Assembly: GCA_910574345.1 (NCBI GenBank)
Contig: CAJSZV010000007.1
Coordinates: forward strand, 124,001 to 188,000
DNA length: 64,000 nucleotides
From: Clostridiaceae bacterium
GTDB taxonomy: Bacteria; Bacillota; Clostridia; Lachnospirales; Lachnospiraceae
Direction of reading: 5' to 3'
This document shows, piece after piece, positions 41,126 through 55,430 of the stretch; within the stretch, counting starts at the first letter, position 1, and each line of letters starts with the position of its first letter. A model generated the notes under the pieces. It was given only the letters and a program-made list of their open reading frames with translations, was not told the origin of the DNA and searched no databases. Both the position numbers and the translations under genes were made by a program.

Positions 41126-42343
41126 TCATACCTCCTGTAAAATATTTTGTGGCGACCTATCAAATATAACCAGCTTCTTGTTTACGACTGTTACTGTCTT
41201 GTCGAATAGGTCTTCATACAACCGCATAAGATTTTGACGCTGCTGCCTGGATAAAATCTTGTAGAAACTACCCATCCAACCACGGAACATATTCTCCACA
41301 TTTTCATAGAGAACTTCTCCGTTTGCAACTTTAACAGCCAGTTTCTTCAATTTTCTGCGCATAGTCGTAACCCTATCCGGATTGATTCTTTTGATGATTT
41401 TTCCATCCTTGGTAAGTGTGTATTTCACTTGCAGGAATTTGTATGTACTGGATATTTTAACGATGTGAGTCTTCTTCTCGTTGATGTGAATACCCAGTTC
41501 TTTGGCGATTACACGAATATGCTCAAGCAAGTCTACCAGCTCTTCTTTGCTTGGATTCATGACGTACCAGTCATCCATATAACGACCGTAAAATTTCTGG
41601 CTTCTTACATATTTCACATAGTTGTCAATGCGGTATGGATAGTAAATCCCGATGACTTGTGAAAGTTGATCACCAATGTTTACCGATTTTTCCATCCACT
41701 TCTCGCCGGTTAATTGTTCCTTGGGTATTTCCCTGTAATCCAGCTTGTTAAACGTTTCGGTCATACAATTGGCGTATTCTTCATCTGTCATGTAAGAAAC
41801 ATCAATTTTGAACCCGTCAAATATAAGTGTTAGAAGCCAGTCAATAAACTCGTCATCGTCAAAGAGCTTTAACAGTTCCCGTTTCGCTATCTCATGAATG
41901 ATATTGTCGTAGAATTTTGAGAAGTCTCCGAACAGAATCCATCCTTCGTTGCCATACTGCTTGTAGTACCGTCGGAGATGCACCTCAAAACGCTCTCTTT
42001 GGTGTGAAATTCCTCTACCTTTGATGGAAGCGCCATTATCATAGATAATATGCTTCTTGACCTCTGGTAACAAAATCTCGTCACATAAAGCATGGCGAAC
42101 AATACGGTCTCTGATTCGGATACTTGATATAGGTCTTACTCGGCCCCGTTCAGACAGAGAAAACTCATCAACAGGACCATTTTCTAAAGTCCGGTTAAGA
42201 AGGTCTTCCTGGATAGAAAATATGTACCTTAGAAAGTTCATCATGAACTTCTGCGTCGTTTCTTTCCATTTACTGCCTTTTACGGAAGCCTTGTAAGCCC
42301 TATACAAGTTGTTGGCGTCAGACAAAATCTCTTCATACGTCAT
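41126..42343 (-). CDS. DGR reverse transcriptase
   Basis: 405 residues. RT motifs in order: fingers RGRVRPISSIRIRDRIV, motif A FGDFSKFYDNI near residue 140, motif B with IGDQLSQVIGIYY near 230 (the (I)G...SQ box that marks DGR-type enzymes), and motif C YGRYMDDWYVM near 253, followed by thumb-like GWMGSFYKIL. It lacks the intron maturase and endonuclease domains and retron motifs. It copies the template repeat (42453-42541) RNA into adenine-mutagenised cDNA that replaces VR in the target gene. The TR is 110 nt upstream on the same strand, as in typical DGRs. The ribosome-binding site is weak. Confidence 0.93.
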   Translation of the reverse strand: MTYEEILSDANNLYRAYKASVKGSKWKETTQKFMMNFLRYIFSIQEDLLNRTLENGPVDEFSLSERGRVRPISSIRIRDRIVRHALCDEILLPEVKKHIIYDNGASIKGRGISHQRERFEVHLRRYYKQYGNEGWILFGDFSKFYDNIIHEIAKRELLKLFDDDEFIDWLLTLIFDGFKIDVSYMTDEEYANCMTETFNKLDYREIPKEQLTGEKWMEKSVNIGDQLSQVIGIYYPYRIDNYVKYVRSQKFYGRYMDDWYVMNPSKEELVDLLEHIRVIAKELGIHINEKKTHIVKISSTYKFLQVKYTLTKDGKIIKRINPDRVTTMRRKLKKLAVKVANGEVLYENVENMFRGWMGSFYKILSRQQRQNLMRLYEDLFDKTVTVVNKKLVIFDRSPQNILQEV

Positions 42344-42452
42344 AATTATTCACCGTGATAGCAATACTTACCGTAGTAAATTGCGTCCAGCTTTGTCATT
42401 TATCCTTGACGGAAAGGACAACGTCTCCTTCTCGGTTGGTTAGACAGAGAAT

Positions 42453-42541
42453 CCGGACGAACCCCGTTAGAGTTCGAAGCGTTGTTGTAGTTCGTATTGC
42501 CATTGTTGTTCACATTAGCGAAATTAGCCGAAGAAACGACG
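42453..42541 (-). repeat. DGR template repeat (TR)
   Basis: 89 nt between avd (ending 42546) and the RT gene. Read in the frame of the target it would encode ..SSANFANVNNNGNTN.. and so on: 11 AAY codons, one ACG and one TAC carry all 24 adenines. AAY codons randomised at A can give 15 residues but no stop. The 3' part CGGGGTTCGTCCGG matches the VR end and is the probable IMH* region. TR begins 4 nt after the avd stop. Confidence 0.95.
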
Positions 42542-42545
42542 CGAT

Positions 42546-43037
42546 TTAGACATTGCCCTGTAGGTATGCTTTGATTTTGTTGTCACGCTGACGCCATTTC
42601 TTTATCAAACCGATTTCTCGGTCGATAGCATTAACATATCTGCCATAGGTATTAACGTTCACCTCGAAGATTTCCACAATTCGCTGAAGCTCTTTGAGAA
42701 TCTGCTCGCAATTTATAATTGCATTGTTCTGGTAGTCCCGCCGCTGTTCATACTCACGCATAGAAGTGGGGTAAGTCGAATTAGCCGCCCTCACGTTGCT
42801 CGTCAATTGGGATGCTAACTGGTCGATTCGATTTTTGAAATTAGTCATCAAATATCGATACTTCGCAAAGTCTTCCGTCTCATCCTTCCCATAGGCATAA
42901 CGGACCCGTACCAGATGGTCTAAATCTTTTACCCCAAAACTTCTCTGCATGAAGTCAAGCAGCATGTCATGTAAATCTATCGAGAAGGTAATGGCCTCAA
43001 ATTTGGATTCCTTCCGTTTGCTTGCCAGAACACTCAT
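42546..43037 (-). CDS. avd: DGR accessory variability determinant
   Basis: 163 residues from the ATG at 43037, which overlaps the XkdX stop by 1 nt. Predicted four-helix bundle, basic, with LHDMLLDFMQRSFGVKDL near residue 20, RYLMTNFKNRIDQLASQL near 60 and AIDREIGLIKKWRQRDNKI near the C terminus. Avd pentamers bind the RT and the TR RNA and are needed for cDNA synthesis. Its stop is 4 nt ahead of TR. Identification rests on position, size, charge and helix pattern rather than a motif. Confidence 0.85.
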   Translation of the reverse strand: MSVLASKRKESKFEAITFSIDLHDMLLDFMQRSFGVKDLDHLVRVRYAYGKDETEDFAKYRYLMTNFKNRIDQLASQLTSNVRAANSTYPTSMREYEQRRDYQNNAIINCEQILKELQRIVEIFEVNVNTYGRYVNAIDREIGLIKKWRQRDNKIKAYLQGNV

Positions 43038-43177
43038 CAATAAGCGGCTCCGGTAATCTCAGCAAACTCTTCCTCGGTAATCCAGCCCTTTACTACGGCA
43101 TTACGAACGCGGGTCAAATCCCACAGCTTTCTGTTGTAGAAACCCTTTACTTTGTCGTAATTCTTGCTATGTTCCAT
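43037..43177 (-). CDS. XkdX-family small phage protein
   Basis: 46 residues, MEHSKNYDKVKGFYNRKLWD and then LTRVRNAVVKGWITEEEFAE, which is the XkdX pattern (K..YD.G.W....V...V..G.IT.EE...ITG). XkdX proteins sit next to tail-fibre genes of many Firmicute phages; the role is not known. AAGAAAGGAGAGCACC precedes the ATG. It ends overlapping the avd start (TGATG). Confidence 0.85.
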   Translation of the reverse strand: MEHSKNYDKVKGFYNRKLWDLTRVRNAVVKGWITEEEFAEITGAAY

Positions 43178-43196
43178 GGTGCTCTCCTTTCTTTTC

Positions 43197-43505
43197 TTAA
43201 AGCTCGACGTCGCACATCATAGCGAGATATTCGAGGTCGGACTTGAGCTTTGCCTGTTCCAGTTCTTTCTGCGGAATATCCCGAAGGACAAACCACGACT
43301 TTTCATCAACAGTCGTCACCTGAACCAAATCCATGTGTTCATGAATTTCTTCATTGGTTCCGTCGTTGATGATGACAGGGGAACACGTTCCGTCGAAGAT
43401 GGAAGCGTCAATAGCCTCCTCGGAAATGAAATTGTTCCCGTTCATGGTAAGGTTGTCAAGGACAGTTCCATCGGCAAGGGTGATTCTATAAGTTTTCTCA
43501 TCCAT
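43197..43505 (-). CDS. Small phage tail-region protein of unknown role
   Basis: 102 residues from the ATG at 43505 (AAAGGAAGAATCAAA upstream). MDEKTYRITLADGTVLDNLT, NGNNFISEE and FDGTCSPVII are typical of a family placed between tail-fibre genes and XkdX in gut phages. The C terminus is helical and charged (KELEQAKLKSDLEYLAMM). No catalytic motif. It lies within the DGR cassette but is not known to be part of mutagenesis. Confidence 0.7.
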   Translation of the reverse strand: MDEKTYRITLADGTVLDNLTMNGNNFISEEAIDASIFDGTCSPVIINDGTNEEIHEHMDLVQVTTVDEKSWFVLRDIPQKELEQAKLKSDLEYLAMMCDVEL

Positions 43506-43588
43506 TTTGATTCTTCCTTTCACTTAATTTTTTACTGTTATAACACAAGATTCTGTCACCTGAGTATGGTGTTTTCTTTCGGAGCGAG

Positions 43589-43605
43589 GGGGGCACGAGG
43601 CCCCC
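43589..43605 (-). other. DGR hairpin downstream of VR
   Basis: GGGGGC (43589-43594) and GCCCCC (43600-43605) form a perfect 6-bp GC stem with a 5-nt loop, ACGAG on the plus strand. It starts 4 nt after the target stop codon. No T run follows on the minus strand. In the Bordetella phage DGR a hairpin/cruciform at the same place is needed for efficient retrohoming. Confidence 0.75.
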
Positions 43606-43609
43606 AGAT

Positions 43610-44590
43610 TTAGCCAACCAACCCGAAGACCGGACGAACCCCGTAAGAGAGCGAAGCGAGGTAGTAGTCCGCATTGCCACCGGCGTGCACAAAAGCGAAA
43701 TACGCCGAAGAAACGACGTCTCTCAGCCAATACCAGTATCTCCCAGGATTGATAAATCTCGGATACATCTTCATCAACGCCAACTGGGTCTTGTCGATGG
43801 TGTAACGGTTCGGAATGAAAGAACCGTCTCCGGCAGGGGTAAACACCAGACTCCCATACATCATGATTTCATTCGGAAGTTCAACCGTAGAATCGTACCA
43901 GGCGCCGGCAGAAGGATAACCATTGGTTACGGCATTAGTCAGATATTCCCTGTGTGTGAGAATATTGGTAGAACCGAAAGCCGAGTTCACCAAAGTCTTT
44001 GCATTGGCCAGATTAGCCGTATACATCAGTGAGCCGACATAACCGCCGGTGGTGATATTGGTTTCATTCATCTTGGCGTTATACAAAGCGGCATCCGGCA
44101 TAATTACCAGATGAGGAGTTGTACAGGAAGTGTCGCCAGAATTCAACCAATAGTTGATATCGACAATTCTCCAAATCCTGTCTCCGATGCTCCAATAATC
44201 CCCGATGAAGAACCCTTTGAATGTGCCAGCCCTGATCTGGGCTTTCTGAGCCGTAGTCAAAGCCGTTCCAAGATTCTTTCCACGGAAAATATTCCGGCGC
44301 TGCTCTACAGAGATGACAGCATCCAAAATCCCCCAGAAAGCATCGTTGACCGTAATGCCCTTATTGCCGTCCGCAGCAGAAACCATCAGCTTGTCCGTCG
44401 CAGAAACCGACGAAACCTGGGTGAGCTGCGAGACATCCATCTTGGCAAGATAGTCCTGGGAAGAACTAACCGCCACGAGTGCCGCAAGCAAATCCCTTGC
44501 GAGAATTGTTTTTGTCCCGCCGTCCCCGTCCACAAGCAGAACATTGTTGGCGAGGAGCTGCGTTACTTTTTCGTAGTCTGTAATTTTCAT
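43610..44590 (-). CDS. DGR target: variable tail-tip protein with C-lectin-type C terminus
   Basis: 326 residues. The N-terminal ~100 residues (MKITDYEKVTQLLANNVLLV) look like a tail attachment and coiled-coil part. The rest has the C-type-lectin layout used by DGR targets: FFIGDYWSIGDRIWRIVDIN and PHLVIMPDAALY midway, then RYWYWLRD and, after the variable part, YGVRPVFGL. VR spans residues ~291-320. This protein probably binds the host receptor, and DGR action varies the binding surface. The 3' end carries VR and a hairpin follows. Confidence 0.9.
   Translation of the reverse strand: MKITDYEKVTQLLANNVLLVDGDGGTKTILARDLLAALVAVSSSQDYLAKMDVSQLTQVSSVSATDKLMVSAADGNKGITVNDAFWGILDAVISVEQRRNIFRGKNLGTALTTAQKAQIRAGTFKGFFIGDYWSIGDRIWRIVDINYWLNSGDTSCTTPHLVIMPDAALYNAKMNETNITTGGYVGSLMYTANLANAKTLVNSAFGSTNILTHREYLTNAVTNGYPSAGAWYDSTVELPNEIMMYGSLVFTPAGDGSFIPNRYTIDKTQLALMKMYPRFINPGRYWYWLRDVVSSAYFAFVHAGGNADYYLASLSYGVRPVFGLVG
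43630..43718 (-). repeat. DGR variable repeat (VR)
   Basis: 89 nt at the 3' end of the target gene. Relative to TR, codons changed at A are AAT to TAT, AAT to TTT, AAC to CAC, AAC to GCC, AAT to GGT, ACG to GCG, AAC to GAC, AAC to TAC, AAC to CTC (twice) and AAC to TAC. One AAT codon is unchanged. The only difference away from A is a silent GCT to GCG. The 3' flank, from GTCTTCGGG on, is not in TR. Confidence 0.95.
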
Positions 44591-44946: not shown

Positions 44947-46455
44947 TTATTTCGTGACAAATATGGTTTTGCCTCTGATGACATCACCTTTATCATCAAG
45001 GAGCTGCTCTGTCCGATCTGCCTCCGGATTGTTCACATACAGCCATGTACCGCCATCGGTCAGAATCTGATAAACCGTGAATTCGTTGGCGAGTCCGTCA
45101 AACGCCCGTTCAATAGCTGCTAACCGTCGTTTTACATCTTCGAGTTCTTCGTCTACATCAGCCCCCTTTTTGACAACGAACGTAACCCGTTTCCCCTCAA
45201 TCGGCTTATTATCGCCATCCAGAACTGATGAATCGGAAGAGTCATTAAGGCTGTCATAAATTGAGTGGGTATTTGTAAGCTCATTTTGAAAATCCACAAG
45301 CTTATTTATCCGTTCATTGAGAACGACAAGTTCGTTGGCAAATGCCGAAACGTCCTCTCCATCAATGAGATCCTTAATGGAGTCCCACCAGTCCCGGAAG
45401 TCCTTGTCGATGGAATTCTTCCAATCAGTGAACTCTTTGGTATTAGCATTCACATAATCGTAGAACCAACCGCTCCAAAGCGCTTTCCAATTGGCGTTCG
45501 CTTCCTGCATTTCGGTGGTCTGGCTGCTGAAAAACTCCTCCCACTGATGTTCCCAGTTCAGATAGGCTTCCTGAATCTCTGTTGTCTGAGCTTCAAACCA
45601 TATCCTCCACTGATTTTTCCAGAAAGAGCTGTACTCCGTGAAATCATCGGTTACAAGCTTTTTCCAGTATGCCAGCTCCCGGCTGCTGTTGTTGACGTAG
45701 TCGTAAAACCACTTTTGCCACATATCTTTCCAGTAATCAGCAGTGTCGGTAATTTCATTCACATGTGCGTTATAAAACTCCTCCCACTGATGTTCCCAGT
45801 TCAGATAGGCTTCCTGAATCTCTGTTGTCTGAGCTTCAAACCATATCCTCCACTGATTTTTCCAGAAAGAATTTGCAGACTCCATATCGGCAGTCTGAGC
45901 ACCATAGAACGCTTTCCACTGGTCCCCCCACTGCGCCACCAAAGCATCGATAGACATCTTTTCAAGTGGGGCTGTGACAAACGGACACGCCGATGTACCG
46001 ACACAGTTTGTAATGTTCGCCTGCCTGATTGCTGTCACGCCGGCATTCACACGAATATAAGCAAGCGGGTACTGCCAGCGGTCATTCGTCTTTATCAGCG
46101 TCGGATTCTTCGGGCTGGATGCGGGAGTCCCTTTGACAATCTTTATCGAATTTGCCCGCACCGATTCCCTAGCATCGACTTCCAACACAACCACGTCAAT
46201 CCGGTTCAGAATTACTTCCGATAAGGGAAGGGTCAGAGGCAATAGGGCGTCGTTCAATGTCCATGTGTGATTAAACCATGCTCTGCCGATTCCGACATTC
46301 ACCGTCATGCCTTCAGATTCCTTAACCATCATGGCGGTGCCGTAATGCTGCAATACACCGTCCCGGATAATCCCGTCAAAAATACTGGACATCTGAATTG
46401 CATCGTATCTTCGATCACGGTTTTTGGAATTGTAAAATCCATAGGTAACACTCAT
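44947..46455 (-). CDS. Phage baseplate/tail-fibre protein with repeated W-rich modules
   Basis: 502 residues. The N-terminal ~160 residues (YDAIQMSSIFDGIIRDGVLQ, GRAWFNHTW, RIDVVVLEVDARESVRA) form a module widespread in gut siphophage baseplate proteins. A helical Trp-rich region (about 170-370) contains QWRIWFEAQTTEIQEAY blocks, one pair encoded by exact 97-bp DNA repeats. The C terminus ends with TIFVTK after LLDDKGDVIRG. It overlaps the preceding tail gene by 1 nt and is probably an attachment platform for the receptor-binding protein. Confidence 0.75.
   Translation of the reverse strand: MSVTYGFYNSKNRDRRYDAIQMSSIFDGIIRDGVLQHYGTAMMVKESEGMTVNVGIGRAWFNHTWTLNDALLPLTLPLSEVILNRIDVVVLEVDARESVRANSIKIVKGTPASSPKNPTLIKTNDRWQYPLAYIRVNAGVTAIRQANITNCVGTSACPFVTAPLEKMSIDALVAQWGDQWKAFYGAQTADMESANSFWKNQWRIWFEAQTTEIQEAYLNWEHQWEEFYNAHVNEITDTADYWKDMWQKWFYDYVNNSSRELAYWKKLVTDDFTEYSSFWKNQWRIWFEAQTTEIQEAYLNWEHQWEEFFSSQTTEMQEANANWKALWSGWFYDYVNANTKEFTDWKNSIDKDFRDWWDSIKDLIDGEDVSAFANELVVLNERINKLVDFQNELTNTHSIYDSLNDSSDSSVLDGDNKPIEGKRVTFVVKKGADVDEELEDVKRRLAAIERAFDGLANEFTVYQILTDGGTWLYVNNPEADRTEQLLDDKGDVIRGKTIFVTK
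45531..45870 (-). repeat. Exact 97-bp direct repeats in the fibre gene
   Basis: 45531-45627 and 45774-45870 are identical over 97 bp, offset by 243 bp (81 codons), so the reading frame is kept. Both code for ..QWRIWFEAQTTEIQEAY.. modules. The flanks diverge at once on both sides. Loss or gain of one 81-codon unit by recombination would leave the gene open. Confidence 0.95.
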
Positions 46456-47528
46456 TATTCATCGCCTCCTTCCGTTGTTTTAAATGTCGGGTATACAGAT
46501 GCACCATCGGAATCTTCAGTCATAACGATTTCGACAATCCGGGCTTTCGTTTCATGCCCATACTCGTTCGCAATCTGAACGACATCACCATTGAAGAAAT
46601 CTTCACCGTATTTGAACATAACGGTGGTTTCCACTTGGCCCTCAAACGATGTGACATCCGTATTCTCCGCTAACTTTTCTCTCCCCCTTTGTTGCAGCAA
46701 TGCCGTATATTCAGCATCGGTTAAGGTGACATCGTTGCCGACATCCGAAGAAATATCTCTTGCATCTGTAAAAAGTTCCCGGCGATTCAAACCGCTTCCG
46801 CCGCCAACCGTCGTGTATCTTCTTGCAGAGCCTTCTCCCTCCCCGCCAACCAGCGTAACGTTTTTCAACGCTGACTTTGACTCAACATAATTACTGTTGA
46901 TGATGTTTTCGAAATTGGGGGAAAAGACCACATATGGATTCGCAGTCTGGTCATAAGACCTGTCAACACCGGCATAAAGTTTAAACACGAACTGCTTTTT
47001 ATCATTCAGTGTAATCTTGAAACCGATATCACGTTCGCTGCAAATCTTGTTTATCACATCGTATAGATTGTCCCCCGTATACTGAGCATCAATTGTCAGC
47101 TTTGTAATCGCCGGATCCGTAGATGCTTCAAAAATGAAATTGCTGATTCGGCGGCTACTGTCGGAAGGGGAGATGATGTTTTCGTTCAGGAGTGTCTGGA
47201 TTCCATTTTGAAGATTTCCTCTTATGGTCCGTTGCCCCCAGACAATTCTCCTGTCCAGGATGGATTCCAGCGACCTACCGGTTACAGTAATATGATTTCC
47301 GTCCTCGGAATCCGAAGTGATTCTTATCTTTTCAATAATCATGCAATGCTCCGATTCCCGATTCTGCAAATAGTAATCCTGCCGTATGTAGCTGAGAATC
47401 GTGCTTGTCATAGATGTGAAAAGCTCGAAATCACCATACTCGTAATACCGATCTGTCCAGATAAAGGACTCGTACACATCCACGATGGAGACTGCATCCA
47501 GATTTGTGTTTAAAACTATCAAATCCAT
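46455..47528 (-). CDS. Siphovirus Gp37-like tail protein
   Basis: 357 residues from the ATG at 47528, 6 nt after the distal tail gene with GAGGGGG upstream; a GTG one codon before is possible. DVYESFIWTDRYYEYGDFEL, ITVTGRSLESILDRRIV near residue 85 and GDVVQIANEYGHETKARIVE near the end match the ReqiPepy6 Gp37-like family, the baseplate hub relative in many Firmicute siphophages. It probably caps the tail tube below Dit. No peptidase motif is visible, so it is the structural kind. Confidence 0.8.
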   Translation of the reverse strand: MDLIVLNTNLDAVSIVDVYESFIWTDRYYEYGDFELFTSMTSTILSYIRQDYYLQNRESEHCMIIEKIRITSDSEDGNHITVTGRSLESILDRRIVWGQRTIRGNLQNGIQTLLNENIISPSDSSRRISNFIFEASTDPAITKLTIDAQYTGDNLYDVINKICSERDIGFKITLNDKKQFVFKLYAGVDRSYDQTANPYVVFSPNFENIINSNYVESKSALKNVTLVGGEGEGSARRYTTVGGGSGLNRRELFTDARDISSDVGNDVTLTDAEYTALLQQRGREKLAENTDVTSFEGQVETTVMFKYGEDFFNGDVVQIANEYGHETKARIVEIVMTEDSDGASVYPTFKTTEGGDE

Positions 47529-47530
47529 CA

Positions 47531-48445
47531 CTATACCCCCTCGTAAATGATTCGATTCTCTATCTTGAACTGTAAGTTACTGCTTCCTTCTTCCGCCGTA
47601 TACGCAAACACGTTATCGCCTTTCGCAAGCTGGAACCAATCGGCCGCTTTATCCAAACAGTTAAGAATGTTGGTTGTTTTTCCGTTCCGCAGAAGGGTAA
47701 TCGACTTTTTCCCTTTGACCGTACAGATAGTAATTTCATCGCCCGCTACAATTCCGGAACCCGTAAAAGCCTTCATCTTATCAGTATCAATGCGCATAAT
47801 CTCACGAGTTCCGGTATTGTATATGGTGATGTTGCGGGCTTCGCCGATAGCATGAATAGTAATTGTCACACCAATCTCAGCATCTCCGCTATACACAACC
47901 GTCTTTTCCATCTGGTTCTGAATCTCTCCCATTTCCAGCAAACATTCATACAAGGATTCGTTGCTGAAAGGGAACTCAAACAATGGTTCTACGCCATAGA
48001 AAATAGTGGTATTGATCCCATCTTCTCCGGCAGAGTAAAAGAAAGGATTCGGACACACAATGGAGACATCCGAACCCTCATCTTTACTGAATATATCCGG
48101 TTCATTCGATTCGGTATACCCGTCAATTTCTGCCGAACGGTTATCCGTTTCAATCAGCAGCGTAAGTTTCTTCTTTATCGGAAAATACTTATACGATAAC
48201 TGACGAACATCCTCAATCGAATCTTTCCAGAGATACTTCAAAGAAATAACTATGTTCCGTTTCTGGAGCCTGGCAGAATTGAACAAATCCCCGTCAGTTG
48301 TAGCAATTTCGGTGGTATTGATGTTCGCTTTTCCAGACCCCAGACCGGTTACAGAGGTAACTACGAAACCGGATTCCTCCGGCCTCGCAAGTACCAGCTT
48401 GATACTATCGCCAAGATAGTTTGTAACGGTGATTGACTTAATCAC
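47531..48445 (-). CDS. Distal tail protein (Dit-like)
   Basis: 304 residues from a GTG that overlaps the tape-measure stop (GTGA). MIKSITVTNYLGDSIKLVL, RNIVISLKYLW, a DNRSAEIDGYTESNEPDIF segment and SIVCPNPFFYS near residue 130 follow the Dit pattern. The protein hexamer joins the tail tube to the baseplate. The gene lies between the tape measure and Gp37-like protein, the standard place for Dit. Confidence 0.82.
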   Translation of the reverse strand: MIKSITVTNYLGDSIKLVLARPEESGFVVTSVTGLGSGKANINTTEIATTDGDLFNSARLQKRNIVISLKYLWKDSIEDVRQLSYKYFPIKKKLTLLIETDNRSAEIDGYTESNEPDIFSKDEGSDVSIVCPNPFFYSAGEDGINTTIFYGVEPLFEFPFSNESLYECLLEMGEIQNQMEKTVVYSGDAEIGVTITIHAIGEARNITIYNTGTREIMRIDTDKMKAFTGSGIVAGDEITICTVKGKKSITLLRNGKTTNILNCLDKAADWFQLAKGDNVFAYTAEEGSSNLQFKIENRIIYEGV

Positions 48446-51400
48446 GCTTTCACCATCCTTTCCATCGCCGAGAACTGATTCTTTGTCTGCCGATAAATCT
48501 CAACTCTCGACAGTGCTTTAGGCGAATAGTTGTTTTGTGTAAATGTAAATGTGTTACCTGCATTCGGAGAATTTTCTCCATTTTGAACATCTGCGGTATC
48601 CTGCCGGTTCATGCCGGTACTGATGGACAACGCCTGCGTTCTGCTGAACATCGCATTCAGTCTGCTCGTTCCGGCTTCCACATTCGACAAATCAAGAACC
48701 GGACGAATGGTCGGCTGAGTATCGATGTCGCTGTCAATGAAATCTTTGACTTTGGAGATCGCATTACTGAGTCCTGTTCTCGCGGCTTTCGCCATTCCGG
48801 AACCGGCTTTATACGCTTTCTCTGTGTAATCGCCAATCGCATTTACAAACGCCACACCGAAGAAGTCACCAATCCGATACCCCACCTTGGAAGGGGAGTG
48901 CTCGTCAAGTTCTTTCTCCGCCGCCCTTGCTGCCGCTGCCGCCATAGCTCTTGCTTTTGCCTCGGCTTTGTATGTGTTCTCACTGATACCATTTGCAAAC
49001 CCGTCTACAAGATACGAACCCGCATCATAGAACTGGCTATGGTAATCCTTAACTCCAGAGATAGCCCCACCAAGACTGGACGTAAATGCATTCTTTGCGT
49101 CAGCATCTTTACTCTTCACTCCGGCAATGAATTTCACCATGCACTGTTCGCCTGCGCTTTGGAACTCTGAATACTTGTTCTTAATCGCCGTTAGACAGCC
49201 GCTGATGATGTTCGTGAATGTGTTTCTGGCATCCGTATCCTTTGCTCGAACACCTGCAATGAATTTCACCATCGTCTGCGTTCCAACCGACTGAAACTCT
49301 GAATACTTGTTCTTAATCGCTGTTAAACAGCCGCTGACGATATTCGTGAATGTGCTCCGAGCACTGTTATCCTGGGTTTTTACCCCTGCAATGAATTTCA
49401 CCATCAGAGTAGAACCAGCAGTTTGGAAATCCCGCTGCTTCGCATTGATAGCCGTAAGTACCGCCTGAACCAACGCTGTGAATGTTATTGTCAACGTACC
49501 TTTCTTGGCGTTTGCAGCATTTGCAAATGTTGTCAACATATTAGACGCAGCCGCCGTCACCTTTGAATTTGCGCTATTAAACGCATTGATGAATCCGGTA
49601 ATCCCAGCCTCTCCGAGTTTTGTCAGTGCGGAACTGAACGATGTCATTCCACTGGTATCTAATCCAGCCATACCGTTTGCCATATCAACCAATCTGTTTG
49701 TCTGTGTAATCACGCTGGATAACAGTCCGGTATCAATGCTGCTGATATAACTGTAGTATGAACTGAAATACGAACCGAAAGAGCTCATATCCTTGCCGAA
49801 ATCAGCAAGCGTTTTGTCGTCGGAGAACCAGCCACCTTCTTTCGGCAAACTCTTTTGAAGCTCAACAATCGAAGTTGCAGCATTGGTAGTTGATGTTACG
49901 ATACCGGCATCAACATTCTTCATGTAATCGGAGTATTTTGAAAAGTTCTCGCCAAACAGTACCAAGCTTTCACCAAACGCTCCGATATCGTTATCTCCGG
50001 TAAACCAACTGACAACGCCGCCGGTATTCGGTAATGTGTTCGCCAACTCGACCAAAGACTTTCCTGCCGTTGCCGAATTTGTTATAGCATCTACGTCAAT
50101 TCCGGATATTGCATCCGAGTAAGACTTCATTGCCTTTCCAAACGGAACAAGCTGTTCGCCAAACATATCCATGTCGTTCTCACCAGCGAAGAAACCAACC
50201 ACACCACCGCTGTTCGGAACCGTTTTTGCCAATTCAACTAAAGCTTTACCCGCCGTTGCCGAATTAACAATAGCATCAGCATCCAATCCCTTTACAGCCG
50301 TTGAGAAGTCCATCATAGCCTCGCCAAACGGGATTAACTGCTCTCCGAACGCCTTCATATCATTATCGCCGGCAAAGAAGCTGACAACGCCGCCTGTATT
50401 CGGAATAGTAGTAGCCATTTCAGCCATTGCTTTTCCGGCAATCGCCGCCGCTGTTACTGCATCAGCATCCAATCCTTTCACAGCAAGAGAGAAGCCCATC
50501 ATCGCCTCGCCGAACGGAATAAGCTGATCGCCGAACTCCTTCATGTCGTTTTCACCGGCAAAGAATCCTACTACACCGCCGCTATTCGGAAGTGTTGCGG
50601 CCATTTCAGCCAGAGTCTTGCCTGCGGTCGCGGCATTTGCCACGATGTTTCCATCCATACCAGCGATTACTACCGAAAACTCTTTCATTGCTTCGCCAAA
50701 TGGCACCAGCTCTGTCGCGAACTCCGATAATGATGAGCCGCCAGTAATCCAAGAGGTCAATCCCTGCAAAATATCCGCTGCTGTGAGAATGAGAATGGTC
50801 TCGGCAAGGGCTTTAACCCCATCCATCGTAGACGGACTAATCTGGCTCGCACCCTCGATAAACGGCTGGATATTTGTCATAAAAGCAGACAAATCTGCTC
50901 CGATTTGAGGGAACTGGCTTGAAACGCCGCTCATGAATCCGCCGACGATACCGCCGACAAACTGACCGATTGCTGTCCCAATACCTTCCAGCAATTTACC
51001 GCCTTCACCAATCAGCCAGGACAATCCTGGAATCTGCGCTAACGCGCCAACTGCTGCCAATACAAGAGCCAGTTCAGCAATAATCACACCCATGCCCAAC
51101 ACACCAGCCATAGCACCGGGAACTAAAGACGCCACAGCGCTCAATGCCAGCATAATAGCAGAGAGTAATCCGACTCCAACAATGCCTTTCAGCAGGACAT
51201 TTACATCAATACCGCTAAGCGCATCGACAATACCTGAGAAGAAAGACATAAGAACATCTATCGCAACTTTTATGAGTTCCGGCAGATTCTTTGCAATTCC
51301 TTCCAGAACCTTGATTAAAAACTGGAAGATAGAATCGACAATCGACGGTGTATATTTGACAAGCGCCGCTAATGCAGCGTCAATCAGTGCAAGCGCACCG

Positions 51401-54400
51401 TCTGCAATCTGTGGAACGCACTCTAAGAGAACATCCAGCAGAGACAGAACGACAGCTTTGATAGCCTCTCCAATAGCTGGAGCACTCTCTGCAATTACAC
51501 GGCAGAATGCGATAATCCCCTCGCCAATTTTCTCAATCACAGCCGGAATAAGCGCCGCTACCCCTGTAATAATAACCGTCAGGGACGCGACGATAGCAGT
51601 AGCACCGGCAGCTCCAGCCGCAGCCAAAGCAGTAAATCCTACTGCCAAAGCCGATAACCCTGTTCCGGCAGCCAAGAGCCCTGCTCCGATAGCGAGAACA
51701 CCGACGCCAATAAGTGCGAAAGCACCGCTCAATCCCAAAATTGTCGGGACGAGCGGAGTAAGGACGGCCCCAGCAACACCGAGAACCGCAAAAGCTCCAG
51801 CGATTGTAACCAATCCCTTTGCAATGGACATCCAGCTCATAGCGCCCAGAACAGAAAGAACCGGAGTTAATACTGCCAAAGCAGCCGCTGCCACAAGCAT
51901 TGCCGCGGAACCGCCAAGCGTGCCTTTCATAAAGTTCAGCCCGACTGCAAGTTCAGCCAACGCAACGCCCATCGTTACAAGTCCTTTGGCAATCTGCTCC
52001 CAAGAGAAATTGCCCATTTTTCCAAGAACGTTTGCTACGATTTCAAGCGCTGCCCCGACAATAACCAAACCCGTTCCGATACCAACCATGTTTTTAGGCA
52101 TCAGTTTTGTAGCGATTGCAACCTCTGCCAAAGCGCCGCCCATTGAAACCAATCCTTTGGCAATCTGTTCCCATGAGAACTTTGCGAAGTCCGACATAGC
52201 CGAAGCAAATATCTTCATCGCTGCTGCAATCTCTATCAATGCGAGACCGGAAGAAATAACATGCTTTGCATTTCCTGTAAGATTGGTAAACGCTGCTACT
52301 TCAAGAAGAAGTGCTCCGACAGCAGCGAGACCCTTACCGATCTCTTCCCACTTCATTTCTCCGAAGTCTTTACAAACAGATGCGAGAATCTTCATCGCCG
52401 CCGCAAGAATAACCATACCCGTTGCCGTAGTCATGGCTTTACCGCCAAACTTGGCTGTGTTTAGAAACAAGTCAACCTCAGCAAGCAACACACCGACTCC
52501 AACTAGACCTTTTGCTAACTGCTCCCATTGCAATTTTGCAAGGTCACTTACAACAGAAGCAAGAACCTTGATAGCTGCGGAAAGAATCAGCATTCCGGTT
52601 GCGGTGGAAATGGCCCCTTTGCTAAACTTTGCGGTAGCCATAAAAGCGTCTAATTCGGCAAGCAGAACCCCAACTCCGACAAGACCAGCAGCCAGTTGTT
52701 TCCAACTTAAATCTGCCAGTTTCTTTACGGCGCTTGAAAGGATGAGAACCGCACCAGCAAATACAATTAACTTTGTAGAGCCCTTTCCAGTAACCCCATC
52801 AAGTTTATTAAACACCGCCATAGCTCCCATCAAATTTGCAAACATGACGGTGATTGCTCCAAGCGATGCTGAAAGTTTCTCACTGTCAATTAACGAAATC
52901 GCAACGATAGAAGCCGCCAGAATTGCAATTGCAGTTGCTATCTTAATTAACGCCCCCGCCTTTAATTGTGTCTGATATGCTTCAAAACAACCTCTGACAC
53001 CGTCAAGAATTCCGGTCACGCCATCCAAAATCCCCTGCAATCCTTCAAGCGGTTCGGTAAAGCTCTTTAGGAACTTGGTTATACTGAGAGCAATTCCGCC
53101 AATGGAAAGTCCATTCAGCAGATCAATAATCCCGCTAAAATCTGCATTGCCCATCTTTTCGATGAGAGTATCCGCTAAGCCGCCAAGAGCACTTGCGATG
53201 CCGCCGACAATTGCCTTGACCCCATTCCATAAAGCCTGAAGAACCTGCAAGAGTTTACAGTTTGCCAAGGCATTCCCCATCGCTTCCACAGCATTAAGGA
53301 ACCCACTTTTCATACTCCCGGTAGATTCTCCAACCTGTGACATTCTTTCATGAATCCGTTCAAGCATAGAATGAATGAACTCCATGCCCGGAAGTTTAAT
53401 TTTTTCTTTGACAAGGTTCAAGAATTCTTTTACTGATTCCTTTACCTTATCTAAATCTGGAAGATTGAATCTATCCTTTACTTCTTTGGCAAAATCCTTA
53501 AAAGCACCCGCTGCCTTTCCTACGAAACCGATAACACCCTGAATCGCTTTGTTGAAAATATCGTTTTTCTTGATAAATTCATCGAGACATACAAGCCATT
53601 CTCCGATACCGCCGGTAACAGTCAGGATGCCGCCTCCAAGATCGTCCAATCCTCCGAACAACGGAACTATTGCATTAAATATTGCTGAAAAAGCCTGCTT
53701 CACAATATCCAGAATCGCAAACAATCCCTTGAAGGTATTTTTCAGATTTTTGGATGCGGATTCGCTAAGTTTCAGATGAGAGGTAAATTCCTTTAGTCCA
53801 ACTGTAAGGTTATAAAGCCGCTCTGAAGTTATGGGTGGAAATATCTCACGGAATCCCTCAGATATCGGTTTGACAACACTGGCAAGACCCTCAAAAGCAT
53901 TTTTAGCCGCCTCAATCAAAGCAGTACGTCCGCCCATGTCTTTCCATCCTTGCAGCATGGAATTACGGGCATCTGACTGAGCATCAATAAACCCTCCGAT
54001 TGCATTACTCAGGCTTGTCCAAAGGGTTTTCGCTTCTTCAAAGTCACCGAACAGAATTTCCCAGGTCATGGCCCAACCAGAGCCGACAGCCTCTTTCAGC
54101 GTATCCATCAACTGGCTAAAAGTTTTTACTTCCTGAGCGGCAGCAAAAGCCTTCTTACCAATTTCAGTAGTCTCATCAGCATAATCTCGCAAGGTATTGA
54201 CAAGAACATCTGTGGTCATCCACTGATACTGCAAGCTGTCGTTGAAATTCTTCGTGGCGTTGATAGCCTCGTCCATGGTGGAGCCCTGATTGTTTTCGGT
54301 CAACACACGATACATTCCATCAGCGGTCTTTTCCACTGTTCCTGCCGCAACAGCCGCTTCCAAAAGCTGTGTCTTGAATTCCACTGTTGCCATGTTTGCG

Positions 54401-55056
54401 TTTTCAATGGATTTCCAGTCAATCAGCTTTACATAACCAGCCGATAAAGCCTGCGCAAAGTTATACATGGCTCTGGAAGCCTCATTTGCATTCGCGCCGG
54501 AAATGGCAGCTTCGTTCGATATACCCTGAATCGCCATTACAGCATCTTCCAGTTTAACACCAGCATTTGTGAATTTACCGATATTCGAAGTCATATCCTG
54601 AAACGAATAAATCGTTTTATCTGAATACGTATTCAACTCCTGGAGATATCCATTCACTTCTTCCAAAGAAGCGCCGGTACTCATCATGATTGTCTGAATC
54701 GAACCCATTTTCAGTTCGTATTCTTCAAATCCCTGAGAGATTGGTTCTATAGTAAGCGAATGAAGCATCTGCTTTCCGGTATTGATAACCGAATTGGTAA
54801 TGTTGGCAAGAGCGGTTACAGCCATGACTTCAAACGCCGAGAATTTAGCGTGGACGGTTTCCACCGCACTGGTAAGCCCTGACATATTGCAGTTTTTTGC
54901 CGCAGAATTTACATTCTCCAAGCCCTTTGCAGCACCGTCCAAATTCAGACTGCGCTTTAGCTTGTCAAGAGTCGAGAGGCTGGTCTGAACATTCTGCTCG
55001 AACTGTTTATTGTCGAACCGCATCTCGACAACTCTTTCGTCAACTGTCTTGCTCAT
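48442..55056 (-). CDS. Phage tape measure protein
   Basis: 2204 residues from the ATG at 55056 (ATGA overlap with the preceding gene). The N-terminal ~270 residues match siphophage tape measures (MSKTVDERVVEMRFDNKQFE, YSFQDMTSNIGKFTNAGVKL). Hydrophobic helices repeat with a W(E/K)(Q/E)(I/L)(A/G)KGL box every ~60 residues near 770-1100. A second repeat, F(F/W).G(E/D)ND...FG..L..FG, recurs near 1500-1760, and K(F)IAG(V)(K/R) repeats near 1870-1975. The C terminus has EKELDEHSPSKVGYRIGDFF. It sets tail length; at ~0.15 nm per residue the tail would be about 330 nm. No lytic domain is visible. Confidence 0.95.
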   Translation of the reverse strand: MSKTVDERVVEMRFDNKQFEQNVQTSLSTLDKLKRSLNLDGAAKGLENVNSAAKNCNMSGLTSAVETVHAKFSAFEVMAVTALANITNSVINTGKQMLHSLTIEPISQGFEEYELKMGSIQTIMMSTGASLEEVNGYLQELNTYSDKTIYSFQDMTSNIGKFTNAGVKLEDAVMAIQGISNEAAISGANANEASRAMYNFAQALSAGYVKLIDWKSIENANMATVEFKTQLLEAAVAAGTVEKTADGMYRVLTENNQGSTMDEAINATKNFNDSLQYQWMTTDVLVNTLRDYADETTEIGKKAFAAAQEVKTFSQLMDTLKEAVGSGWAMTWEILFGDFEEAKTLWTSLSNAIGGFIDAQSDARNSMLQGWKDMGGRTALIEAAKNAFEGLASVVKPISEGFREIFPPITSERLYNLTVGLKEFTSHLKLSESASKNLKNTFKGLFAILDIVKQAFSAIFNAIVPLFGGLDDLGGGILTVTGGIGEWLVCLDEFIKKNDIFNKAIQGVIGFVGKAAGAFKDFAKEVKDRFNLPDLDKVKESVKEFLNLVKEKIKLPGMEFIHSMLERIHERMSQVGESTGSMKSGFLNAVEAMGNALANCKLLQVLQALWNGVKAIVGGIASALGGLADTLIEKMGNADFSGIIDLLNGLSIGGIALSITKFLKSFTEPLEGLQGILDGVTGILDGVRGCFEAYQTQLKAGALIKIATAIAILAASIVAISLIDSEKLSASLGAITVMFANLMGAMAVFNKLDGVTGKGSTKLIVFAGAVLILSSAVKKLADLSWKQLAAGLVGVGVLLAELDAFMATAKFSKGAISTATGMLILSAAIKVLASVVSDLAKLQWEQLAKGLVGVGVLLAEVDLFLNTAKFGGKAMTTATGMVILAAAMKILASVCKDFGEMKWEEIGKGLAAVGALLLEVAAFTNLTGNAKHVISSGLALIEIAAAMKIFASAMSDFAKFSWEQIAKGLVSMGGALAEVAIATKLMPKNMVGIGTGLVIVGAALEIVANVLGKMGNFSWEQIAKGLVTMGVALAELAVGLNFMKGTLGGSAAMLVAAAALAVLTPVLSVLGAMSWMSIAKGLVTIAGAFAVLGVAGAVLTPLVPTILGLSGAFALIGVGVLAIGAGLLAAGTGLSALAVGFTALAAAGAAGATAIVASLTVIITGVAALIPAVIEKIGEGIIAFCRVIAESAPAIGEAIKAVVLSLLDVLLECVPQIADGALALIDAALAALVKYTPSIVDSIFQFLIKVLEGIAKNLPELIKVAIDVLMSFFSGIVDALSGIDVNVLLKGIVGVGLLSAIMLALSAVASLVPGAMAGVLGMGVIIAELALVLAAVGALAQIPGLSWLIGEGGKLLEGIGTAIGQFVGGIVGGFMSGVSSQFPQIGADLSAFMTNIQPFIEGASQISPSTMDGVKALAETILILTAADILQGLTSWITGGSSLSEFATELVPFGEAMKEFSVVIAGMDGNIVANAATAGKTLAEMAATLPNSGGVVGFFAGENDMKEFGDQLIPFGEAMMGFSLAVKGLDADAVTAAAIAGKAMAEMATTIPNTGGVVSFFAGDNDMKAFGEQLIPFGEAMMDFSTAVKGLDADAIVNSATAGKALVELAKTVPNSGGVVGFFAGENDMDMFGEQLVPFGKAMKSYSDAISGIDVDAITNSATAGKSLVELANTLPNTGGVVSWFTGDNDIGAFGESLVLFGENFSKYSDYMKNVDAGIVTSTTNAATSIVELQKSLPKEGGWFSDDKTLADFGKDMSSFGSYFSSYYSYISSIDTGLLSSVITQTNRLVDMANGMAGLDTSGMTSFSSALTKLGEAGITGFINAFNSANSKVTAAASNMLTTFANAANAKKGTLTITFTALVQAVLTAINAKQRDFQTAGSTLMVKFIAGVKTQDNSARSTFTNIVSGCLTAIKNKYSEFQSVGTQTMVKFIAGVRAKDTDARNTFTNIISGCLTAIKNKYSEFQSAGEQCMVKFIAGVKSKDADAKNAFTSSLGGAISGVKDYHSQFYDAGSYLVDGFANGISENTYKAEAKARAMAAAAARAAEKELDEHSPSKVGYRIGDFFGVAFVNAIGDYTEKAYKAGSGMAKAARTGLSNAISKVKDFIDSDIDTQPTIRPVLDLSNVEAGTSRLNAMFSRTQALSISTGMNRQDTADVQNGENSPNAGNTFTFTQNNYSPKALSRVEIYRQTKNQFSAMERMVKA

Positions 55057-55430
55057 AGCTTCGTAACCTCCCTCCATGCTTCATTTGCGATTTTGTCAAA
55101 AATAGGCTGGATAGCAGGATTGATGTAATCTCGCCCCTGTACCCAGCCGCCGTTTCTTGTTCCATGCCCGTATTGCAGGATGATGGCAATCGGAACTCCA
55201 TTTTGAATATTTGAGTTGTAAAACGAAATCGTTACCGACCCGTTCTTGTTCTTAATCTCGTATCGCCATGAACTGGCGGTTTTTCCCGAATCGACAGGTG
55301 TTGCAGACGCAAGGGCGGCTACTCCCTCTCGACCGTACTTATCAAGGTCTCCGAGTTTAACGACCTCTTTTGCCCTCTCTAAATACCTTGTCAATTTAGA
55401 GAAGTCGCCCTTTTGTCTGAACGTTATCAT
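55053..55430 (-). CDS. HK97 gp10-like neck/tail-completion protein
   Basis: 125 residues with GAGGAGAATTTTAT before the ATG. LTRYLERAKEVVKLGDLDKY then ATPVDSGKTASSWRYEI is the gp10 motif (A.A..TP..TG....SW); RDYINPAIQPIFDKIANEAW ends it. These proteins finish the tail-head joint. It lies between lysin and tape measure, rather than with the connectors at 58.8-59.4 kb, where this family is usual. Confidence 0.75.
   Translation of the reverse strand: MITFRQKGDFSKLTRYLERAKEVVKLGDLDKYGREGVAALASATPVDSGKTASSWRYEIKNKNGSVTISFYNSNIQNGVPIAIILQYGHGTRNGGWVQGRDYINPAIQPIFDKIANEAWREVTKL

Follow-up and report, generated by a model that had tools for sequence, protein, structure and literature searches.

A diversity-generating retroelement in a Lachnospiraceae prophage with one template repeat and two variable repeats, the second in a remote DUF6273 gene

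Introduction

Which genes does the diversity-generating retroelement (DGR) of this prophage rewrite? The window, a stretch of 64,000 nucleotides from contig C7 (CAJSZV010000007.1) of a Clostridiaceae bacterium, carries a reverse transcriptase (RT) gene, an avd gene, a template repeat (TR) and a variable repeat (VR1) next to phage tail genes, and an initial annotation made from the sequence alone had described a complete DGR in a prophage tail module. Surveys centred on RTs overlook remote targets, as PMC8144416 states of its own method in the part used here, and published work on other gut phages already describes second DGR targets at a distance. The DGR analysed here is a further such case.

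Results

The DGR core and its tail-module target

The RT (405 aa, 41126..42343, minus strand) contains the motifs IGDQLSQ (with the SQ first annotated) and YMDD and matched PHROG 1423 (E 6.5e-63) and Pfam RVT_1; its best sequence match in the PDB was 8ub7 'Reverse transcriptase' (E 2.2e-10). An SQ in RT motif 4 is a hallmark of DGRs. In a tree built without a retron reference, and in which the SP-motif rows were seven RTs from the same genome, the 12 SQ-motif rows, including this RT and those of BPP-1, Roseburia phage Shimadzu and Acutalibacter phage Fontainebleau, stood apart from the seven SP-motif rows (100/98). The proposed check that the RT should fall among DGR enzymes was borne out by its grouping with the BPP-1 RT in this tree. 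Two other RT classes were considered and rejected: the NCBIfam group II intron profile group_II_RT_mat scored 61.2 bits against a cut-off of 300, with the SP-motif RTs separate in the tree, and the sole NCBIfam retron match, retron_St85_RT, scored 19.8 bits against a cut-off of 235. A search of the phage collection by DNA gave no match, and all matches to the RT protein in that collection were below 60% identity.

The neighbouring accessory protein, Avd (42546..43040, minus strand; at most 164 aa), previously called Avd-like, matched the 'Avd protein of DGR' family, PHROG 3206 (E 1.6e-13); it had no Pfam match at 0.01, and a sequence search of solved structures returned nothing useful. Its listed reading frame begins with TTG, with an ATG immediately next. 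A small ORF of 108 aa (43197..43523, minus strand) with no family match above cut-off lies between avd and the local target gene.

The TR (42453..42541, minus strand, 89 nt with 24 adenines) is located between avd and rt, about 1.2 kb from VR1 (43630..43718, minus strand), and the two repeats aligned without gaps over 89 nt with 17 differing sites. Sixteen of the 24 TR adenines were altered in VR1 (7 to T, 5 to G and 4 to C), compared with one of the 65 other bases (T to G), which is an adenine bias on the coding (minus) strand of Fisher p = 6e-11, and the likeness between the repeats dropped on both sides of the 89-nt stretch. VR1 is the final coding portion of the 326-aa local target ORF (43610..44590, minus strand). 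No stop codon could arise from random bases at the adenines of the in-frame TR stretch, which would allow about 1.4e14 protein variants. Our recomputation therefore returned the figures and placements of the initial annotation, and its reading of the adenine bias as that of a DGR was upheld by the TR/VR1 pair, the RT motifs and tree, and the Avd family. The gene order and strand arrangement are those of the BPP-1 DGR (mtd-avd-TR-brt), which shares the adenine-specific TR/VR difference and a G+C-rich hairpin after the VR.

The local target gene closes a siphovirus-type tail module. Upstream of it, genes matched Dit, Gp37-like, tape-measure and portal families, and those on the minus strand nearest to it encode a 502-aa virion structural protein (44947..46455; PHROG 1220 'head protein', E 3.6e-80), a Gp37-like minor tail protein (46455..47531; Pfam Sipho_Gp37, E 9e-85), the distal tail protein Dit (47531..48445; PHROG 33, E 1.1e-25) and the tape measure protein (48442..55077; PHROG 4372). 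The placement of the DGR in a tail module accordingly stood, but the set first called complete was not, as there is another VR beyond the limits of the window. The local target itself matched no Pfam family at E 0.01, PF19789 (DUF6273) included; profile and structure comparison linked its C-terminal part to the DUF6273-type domain of the remote target described below. Foldseek gave no match under 0.001 for the local target, sequence searches of solved structures with the profiles of both targets gave nothing useful, and none of the structure matches listed was a chain titled as a C-type lectin. The target may nonetheless be C-lectin-like, as first annotated, given its DUF6273-type fold and the resemblance of DUF6273 to C-type lectins reported in the part of PMC10743442 used here; our comparisons gave no direct C-lectin match. 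Given the position of the gene and the precedent of BPP-1, variation at VR1 most likely diversifies receptor binding, and the protein may be a receptor-binding protein whose changes alter host range.

The same TR matches a remote gene

We searched the 5.6-Mb genome with a masked TR, in which non-A bases were fixed and up to 3 mismatches were tolerated, and obtained three matches (TR, VR1 and VR2), each with 0 mismatches; the reversed masked TR gave none in the same genome. As a positive control, our scan of known phages recovered the TR/VR pair of BPP-1, for which it gave one VR, compared with two for the TR of the window. VR2 (C7:215706-215794) lies on the same contig, about 49 kb from the TR, where it forms the 3' end of a gene for a 188-aa protein near the prophage integrase (C7:215686-216252; PF19789, DUF6273, 52.1 bits against a cut-off of 23.5). 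It differed from the TR at 19 sites, of which 16 were TR adenines and three were non-A bases, all at the 5' edge; these three, like the lone non-A change in VR1, may stem from ordinary mutation or from an exchange cut short at the 5' side.

The explanation that we judge best, and very probably correct, is that a DGR (RT, Avd and TR), carried by a prophage of roughly 60 kb, rewrites the VRs of two genes. The RT would copy the TR transcript, placing random bases at adenine positions, and the resulting cDNA would replace VR1 in the tail-module gene and VR2 in the DUF6273 gene, the latter about 11 kb from the TR if the phage genome were circular. The DGR anatomy, the two templated VRs, the hairpin and the variation of remote VRs are apparent from sequence comparison, and mutagenic homing may also take place in this strain today. 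Exact repeats of at least 13 bases between C7:219.5-232 kb and 140-167 kb amounted to eleven 13-mers with no convincing core, and no tRNA was present in the window or in L054. Because att sites were not found, we only infer the prophage ends and circularisation.

DUF6353 genes adjoin the remote target near the integrase, and DUF6353 was found in 36 of the 40 downstream neighbours of remote targets that were scanned. None of 53 remote targets had a hydrophobic segment of at least 1.6, and the predicted structure of a remote target (that of the L189 protein, not of this genome's) was of middling confidence, weakest at the N-terminus and the VR. We regard the remote target as most likely a binding protein of the cytoplasm, presumably made early, that would act on variable host or rival-phage factors. 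It is unlikely to be a virion protein, packaged or ejected, such that both targets serve entry or adsorption. Its fold is common to the tail-side target, and at four loci (L111, L147, L149 and L154) it has a C-terminal extension with the peptide RRSGRYPWG, which the 908-aa RNA-polymerase-like protein of the prophage also carries at its N-terminus; however, its gene is distant from the structural module, and comparable genes in other phages have neighbours of a similarly non-structural kind. Shimadzu and Fontainebleau, whose RTs fall in one clade with that of the window (32% and 41% identity, respectively), each carry one VR locally on the tail side and another, remote, in a gene that resembles the remote target here. 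The neighbours of this gene are different ones, with roles in replication or methylation: in Fontainebleau, DNA polymerase I on one side and, after one further gene, a helicase on the other; in Shimadzu, a DNA methyltransferase and an Erf recombinase.

A pentaloop hairpin follows the VRs

Just beyond the stop codon of the local target lies a hairpin (43589..43605, minus strand) with a 6-bp stem, GGGGGC/GCCCCC, and the loop CTCGT, which we propose as a putative target-recognition element of VR1; a G+C-rich pentaloop hairpin likewise follows VR2, and the TR has none downstream. A hairpin of this type followed 48 of 50 distinct VR1 downstream stretches and 43 of 48 distinct remote VR downstream stretches (91 of 98 VRs in all) and none of 36 distinct TR downstream stretches, while shuffled controls gave 51 in 4900 under a looser loop rule. 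The loops are of 5 nt, mostly CTTGT, and the stems mostly of 5-6 bp, whereas the BPP-1 hairpin has an 8-bp stem and a GAAA loop; the BPP-1-type hairpin, with its 4-nt GRNA-consensus loop and 7-10-bp stem as given in the part of PMC3240598 used here, was therefore rejected as a description of those found here.

Target choice most likely depends on the common 3' end of the VRs together with this hairpin. That the hairpin is an ordinary transcription terminator with no part in targeting seems improbable to us. G+C-rich stem-loops near stop codons are typical of terminators, and T-rich DNA follows several of the hairpins, but the hairpin of VR1 in the window has no T run, genes on the same strand come closely after the hairpin, and in several relatives it lies inside a reading frame. 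Furthermore, the loop is nearly constant despite two unlike stems (GGGGC/GCCCC and CCGCCC/GGGCGG), and the hairpin resembles the one shown to be required in BPP-1 (same part of PMC3240598).

Remote VRs vary in nature

Comparisons among relatives indicate that remote VRs, as a class, vary in nature at TR-adenine positions beside unchanged flanks. VR2 and its counterpart in contig L189 have identical flanks (540/540 and 135/135) and 16 VR differences, 15 of them at TR-A sites, and L197 and L207, with flanks identical at 1040/1040 bases, differ at 20 sites, all 20 at TR-A sites. After wholly identical sequences had been removed, all 32 near-identical VR pairs (flanks of at least 396/400 and at least 194/200) differed in the 68-nt core, with 429 of 444 core differences at the 24 wildcard positions and 22 differences in 19,200 flank bases; the core was unchanged in 5 of 7 near-identical TR pairs. 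VR1 of the window had no relative within these limits, the closest (L014) sharing 395/400 upstream bases, differing at 18 of 68 core sites and giving no ungapped alignment on the downstream side. The even spread of differences over all bases in relatives, which the earlier reading had named as counter-evidence, was not seen; VR differences sat on TR adenines.

Each of the 10 related viral records of at least 50 kb has one or two remote VRs. Compared with the TR of their own phage, 18 remote VRs from 16 records differed at 251 of 394 TR adenines and at 10 of 830 other bases; this comparison left out G017 and G036 (the same phages as G018 and G027), G288 (remote VRs the same as in G001), and G356 and G177 (no TR, or a TR on another contig than the remote VR). 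In a test in which shared ancestry remains, the 10 non-A mismatches compared with a mean of 52 to shuffled TRs, and 0 of 10,000 shuffled TRs reached as few. Remote VRs thus mostly follow their own phage's TR at bases other than the variable adenines. Not every remote VR has been renewed from its TR as it now stands, since VR2 and the remote VRs of G010 and G019 each have three non-A differences, and the identical VR2 and flanks in L169 and L188, from different samples, mean that VR2 is not always changing.

It is very improbable that VR1 is the sole live target and the remote VR an old domain duplicate, spread by recombination or gene conversion and varying passively, because, although the homologous domain of the two targets makes a past duplication likely and both the retained non-A mismatches and the VR2 common to L169 and L188 would fit, where the DNA is identical apart from the remote VRs, their differences are confined, entirely or almost so, to TR-adenine positions, and remote VRs mostly agree with their own TR at the remaining bases and retain the hairpin with two unlike stems.

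Discussion

Several described phages resemble this two-target DGR. In the part of PMC8008677 used here, Quimbyviridae DGRs have, like this one, a second target besides the tail-side one that is distal and probably non-structural, in their case a C-lectin, and the hosts named include Lachnospiraceae. The case described is a Bacteroides phage whose RT is frameshifted and whose second target lies among methyltransferases on the opposite strand, and the same part names neither DUF6353 nor DUF6273; overlap with the present lineage is possible, the comparison being by description. Gut prophages in PMC12629997 are likewise described, in the part used here, with one TR and a second distal VR. DUF6273 targets are given for Faecalibacterium phages Lelie and CP11 and for phages nd4 and nd12 in the parts of PMC11792537 and PMC10743442 used here, and the RTs of nd4 and nd12 share 25% and 29% identity with that of the window. 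That Shimadzu diversifies two proteins has already been cited in PMC11792537 (same part), and the main text of the one paper found for Fontainebleau (PMC10197239) does not contain 'diversity-generating', 'DGR' or 'reverse transcriptase'.

We tentatively raise the possibility, which we think less likely than not, of a broad clade of gut Firmicutes phages in which a single TR would re-arm a tail protein and, in addition, an early protein of lectin fold in the cytoplasm that would work with membrane DUF6353 against intracellular defences or rival phages, and in which a clade-specific pentaloop hairpin, even within coding sequence, would pick the target.

The hairpin signature may help to detect remote targets. 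Remote targets are the norm among the long related records, are visibly re-diversified in nature and do not obviously belong to the virion. According to the part of PMC10197239 used here, Fontainebleau is listed as an induced prophage of Acutalibacter muris in a mouse-gut model consortium, and because this phage has the same layout, the question of why some phages hypermutate a non-structural protein may now be tractable.

The DGR cassette and its reverse transcriptase

The initial annotation described a diversity-generating retroelement (DGR) with an 89-nt template repeat (TR; window 42453-42541, minus strand) and an 89-nt variable repeat in a tail-side gene (VR1; 43630-43718, minus strand), and its positions and counts proved exact on recomputation: TR and VR1 differ at 17 of 89 nt, comprising 16 of 24 TR adenines and 1 of 65 other bases (Fisher p = 6e-11). 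The components it named are also present, namely a 405-aa reverse transcriptase (RT; PHROG 1423) carrying IGDQLSQ (the SQ motif) and YMDD, an Avd-like protein (PHROG 3206), and a TR placed between avd and rt. The coding-strand order, target gene, 108-aa ORF, avd, TR and rt, resembles the mtd-avd-TR-brt order in the record of Bordetella phage BPP-1. In-frame randomisation of the TR adenines never gives rise to a stop codon.

A tree was built from 19 RTs, those of BPP-1, Roseburia phage Shimadzu, Acutalibacter phage Fontainebleau and four relatives, and 12 from the genome under study, including the window's. The 12 SQ-motif RTs (BPP-1, Shimadzu, Fontainebleau, the window's RT, four others of the genome and the four relatives) stood apart from seven SP-motif RTs of the same genome with support of 100/98, the branching order among the SQ-motif RTs being only partly settled. 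The window's RT thus falls with that of BPP-1, among the DGR enzymes, where the initial annotation had expected it. Judged from its sequence, the element is almost certainly a DGR. The four further SQ-motif (DGR-type) RTs of the genome lie on contigs C6, C10 and C27; adenine-biased TR/VR pairs were found at C6:168500-177500 (L228), C6:227000-236000 (L229) and C10:113500-122500 (L232), and none within 9 kb at C27:46300-55300 (L231).

A probable second target of the same TR

The TR with its adenines masked as wildcards matched three places in the 5.6-Mb genome, each with 0 mismatches and on the same strand: the TR, VR1 and C7:215706-215775 (C7 is contig CAJSZV010000007.1), while the reversed pattern had no match in this genome. 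The third site, VR2, forms the 3'-terminal part of an ORF of 188 aa (C7:215686-216252). Compared across all 89 nt, it departs from the TR at 19 sites, namely 16 adenines and 3 positions at the extreme 5' edge. The genome has 14 RVT_1 matches, only one of them on C7. VR1 and VR2 are very likely two templated targets of one TR. The VR2 gene (DUF6273; PHROG 21980, a family of unknown function) is located near an integrase (C7:221890-223128) and is flanked by DUF6353 genes. The recognised genes all run on one strand from the VR2 region to the DGR, with helicase, exonuclease, terminase, portal, tape-measure and tail genes lying in that order between them; we therefore took this stretch as one prophage of ~60 kb (C7 ~163-223 kb, with presumed ends). 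This prophage also encodes a 908-aa protein (L053:5290-8016; C7:192290-195016) that contains a DFDGD motif and shows an end-to-end match to PHROG 4291 ('RNA-dependent RNA polymerase'); its N-terminus includes the peptide RRSGRYPWG, which some remote DGR targets also have in their C-terminal extension.

In Fontainebleau, 15/23 TR adenines and 0/64 other bases are changed in the remote VR, and 16/23 and 3/64 in the local VR; the values for Shimadzu are 15/30 and 0/75 (remote) and 16/30 and 1/75 (local). In the BPP-1 record, the early-side gene bbp36 is annotated with a 'variable region 2' (L235:33229-33558); no VR was reported there when the BPP-1 TR region was used in an adenine-biased scan.

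Viral records that encode a related RT numbered 41; 38 of them matched the pattern with ≤3 mismatches, and an adenine-biased TR/VR pair lay inside 34 of the 41 fetched loci. One or more remote VRs accompanied TR and VR1 in 15 of the 41 records, two pairs among these being near-copies of one phage, and in all ten records of at least 50 kb, two of which had two remote VRs. In the host's family the pattern was present in 6 of 397 genomes, including the genome under study. Exact scans yielded 67 stretches in viral contigs and 52 in named genomes, which were for the most part Lachnospiraceae or other Firmicutes and included a few MAGs labelled otherwise. Cuneatibacter caecimuris DSM 29486 carries four such stretches on one contig (NZ_SGXF01000005.1; L116, L132, L141, L142), with at least two remote VRs and one VR1 identical to those of viral record G001. 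When both elements were on one contig in the viral-record and host-family scans, TR-remote VR distances formed two groups, ~48-51 kb upstream and ~5-12 kb downstream, the latter being expected if those contigs represent a circular genome of ~60 kb opened at a different point.

Rewriting of the variable repeats

Comparison of relatives indicates that the remote VR is being rewritten in nature. VR2 and its counterpart on contig L189 have identical flanks (540/540 bases upstream, 135/135 downstream) and differ at 16 VR sites, 15 of them TR adenines. Contigs L191, L197, L207 and L214 are alike in their flanks, with no more than 1 change over 540 bases upstream and complete identity over 311-500 bases downstream, yet any two of them have 11-20 differing VR sites, every one a TR adenine. 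Conversely, L169 and L188 come from different samples and agree in both flanks and VR2. Among pairs with near-identical flanks, drawn from 168 distinct pattern sites after removal of wholly identical ones, the 68-nt core differed in 32/32 VR pairs; 429 of 444 core differences fell at the 24 wildcard positions, against 22 flank changes in 19,200 bases (these pairs are not independent). The even spread over all bases that the initial annotation had named as contrary evidence was therefore not seen. Five of seven such TR pairs shared the core, and two differed at 9 sites, all wildcard positions.

Across 16 records, 226/350 TR adenines and 5/738 other bases were changed in VR1, and 251/394 and 10/830 in 18 remote VRs. 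Shuffled TRs gave a mean of 52 non-adenine mismatches to the remote VRs, none of 10,000 as low as the 10 observed with their own TRs, with kinship still present in this comparison. The remote VRs of G010 and G019 are counter-cases with 3 such mismatches each; VR1 of G010 has none. The nearest relative of the window's VR1, L014, has 395/400 upstream bases in common and differs at 18/68 core sites; no ungapped alignment was obtained on its downstream side.

In L026 (at 5821) and L027 (at 5820), the copy in the TR place is short of adenines, retaining 4 and 9 at the 24 wildcard positions, and partial loss was also seen in L148, L156 and L107. Several changed residues of the L026 copy also occur in its VR1. 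It looks as though a mutated copy had been written over the TR in these loci.

A hairpin downstream of the VRs

A hairpin with a G+C-rich stem and a loop of 5 nt lies just 3' of the repeat in 48/50 distinct VR1 and 43/48 remote downstream stretches, and in 0/36 distinct TR downstream stretches; shuffled downstream DNA contained such stems in 51/4900 cases, under a looser loop rule. The loop is CTTGT in most, with CCTGT and CTCGT also found, and the stems are of two unlike types, GGGGC/GCCCC or CCGCCC/GGGCGG, so that pairing has been kept while sequence changed. Fontainebleau has 5-nt-loop hairpins 3' of both VRs, and in Shimadzu the hairpin loop is CTCGT at the local VR and 6 nt long at the remote one. 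In several relatives the VR is non-terminal and the hairpin lies inside coding sequence: remote targets of L111, L124, L147, L149, L154, L167 and L172 have an internal VR with the hairpin translated as SRGPVPR, followed in complete ones by an extension of ~90-110 aa. According to passages of the BPP-1 report, a hairpin after the VR is required there, and its stem sequence may vary while the loop matters; that loop is GRNA, of 4 nt (PMC3240598), in contrast to the 5 nt of the present lineage, in which the pentaloop hairpin would likewise serve targeting.

Relation to known two-target DGRs

Passages of published reports describe distal or second DGR targets in gut Quimbyviridae (PMC8008677), Faecalibacterium phages, with mention of Shimadzu (PMC11792537), tentaclin phages (PMC10743442) and four gut prophage species (PMC12629997), and on this basis we place the lineage among already known two-target DGRs. 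It may overlap the published Lachnospiraceae-infecting Quimby-like phages. Among the open-licence papers listed by our searches, none named this lineage or such a pentaloop in its title or abstract opening, and a few particulars of the present lineage were not found there. The product of the VR1 gene would have a role in host range, and that of the VR2 gene an intracellular one.
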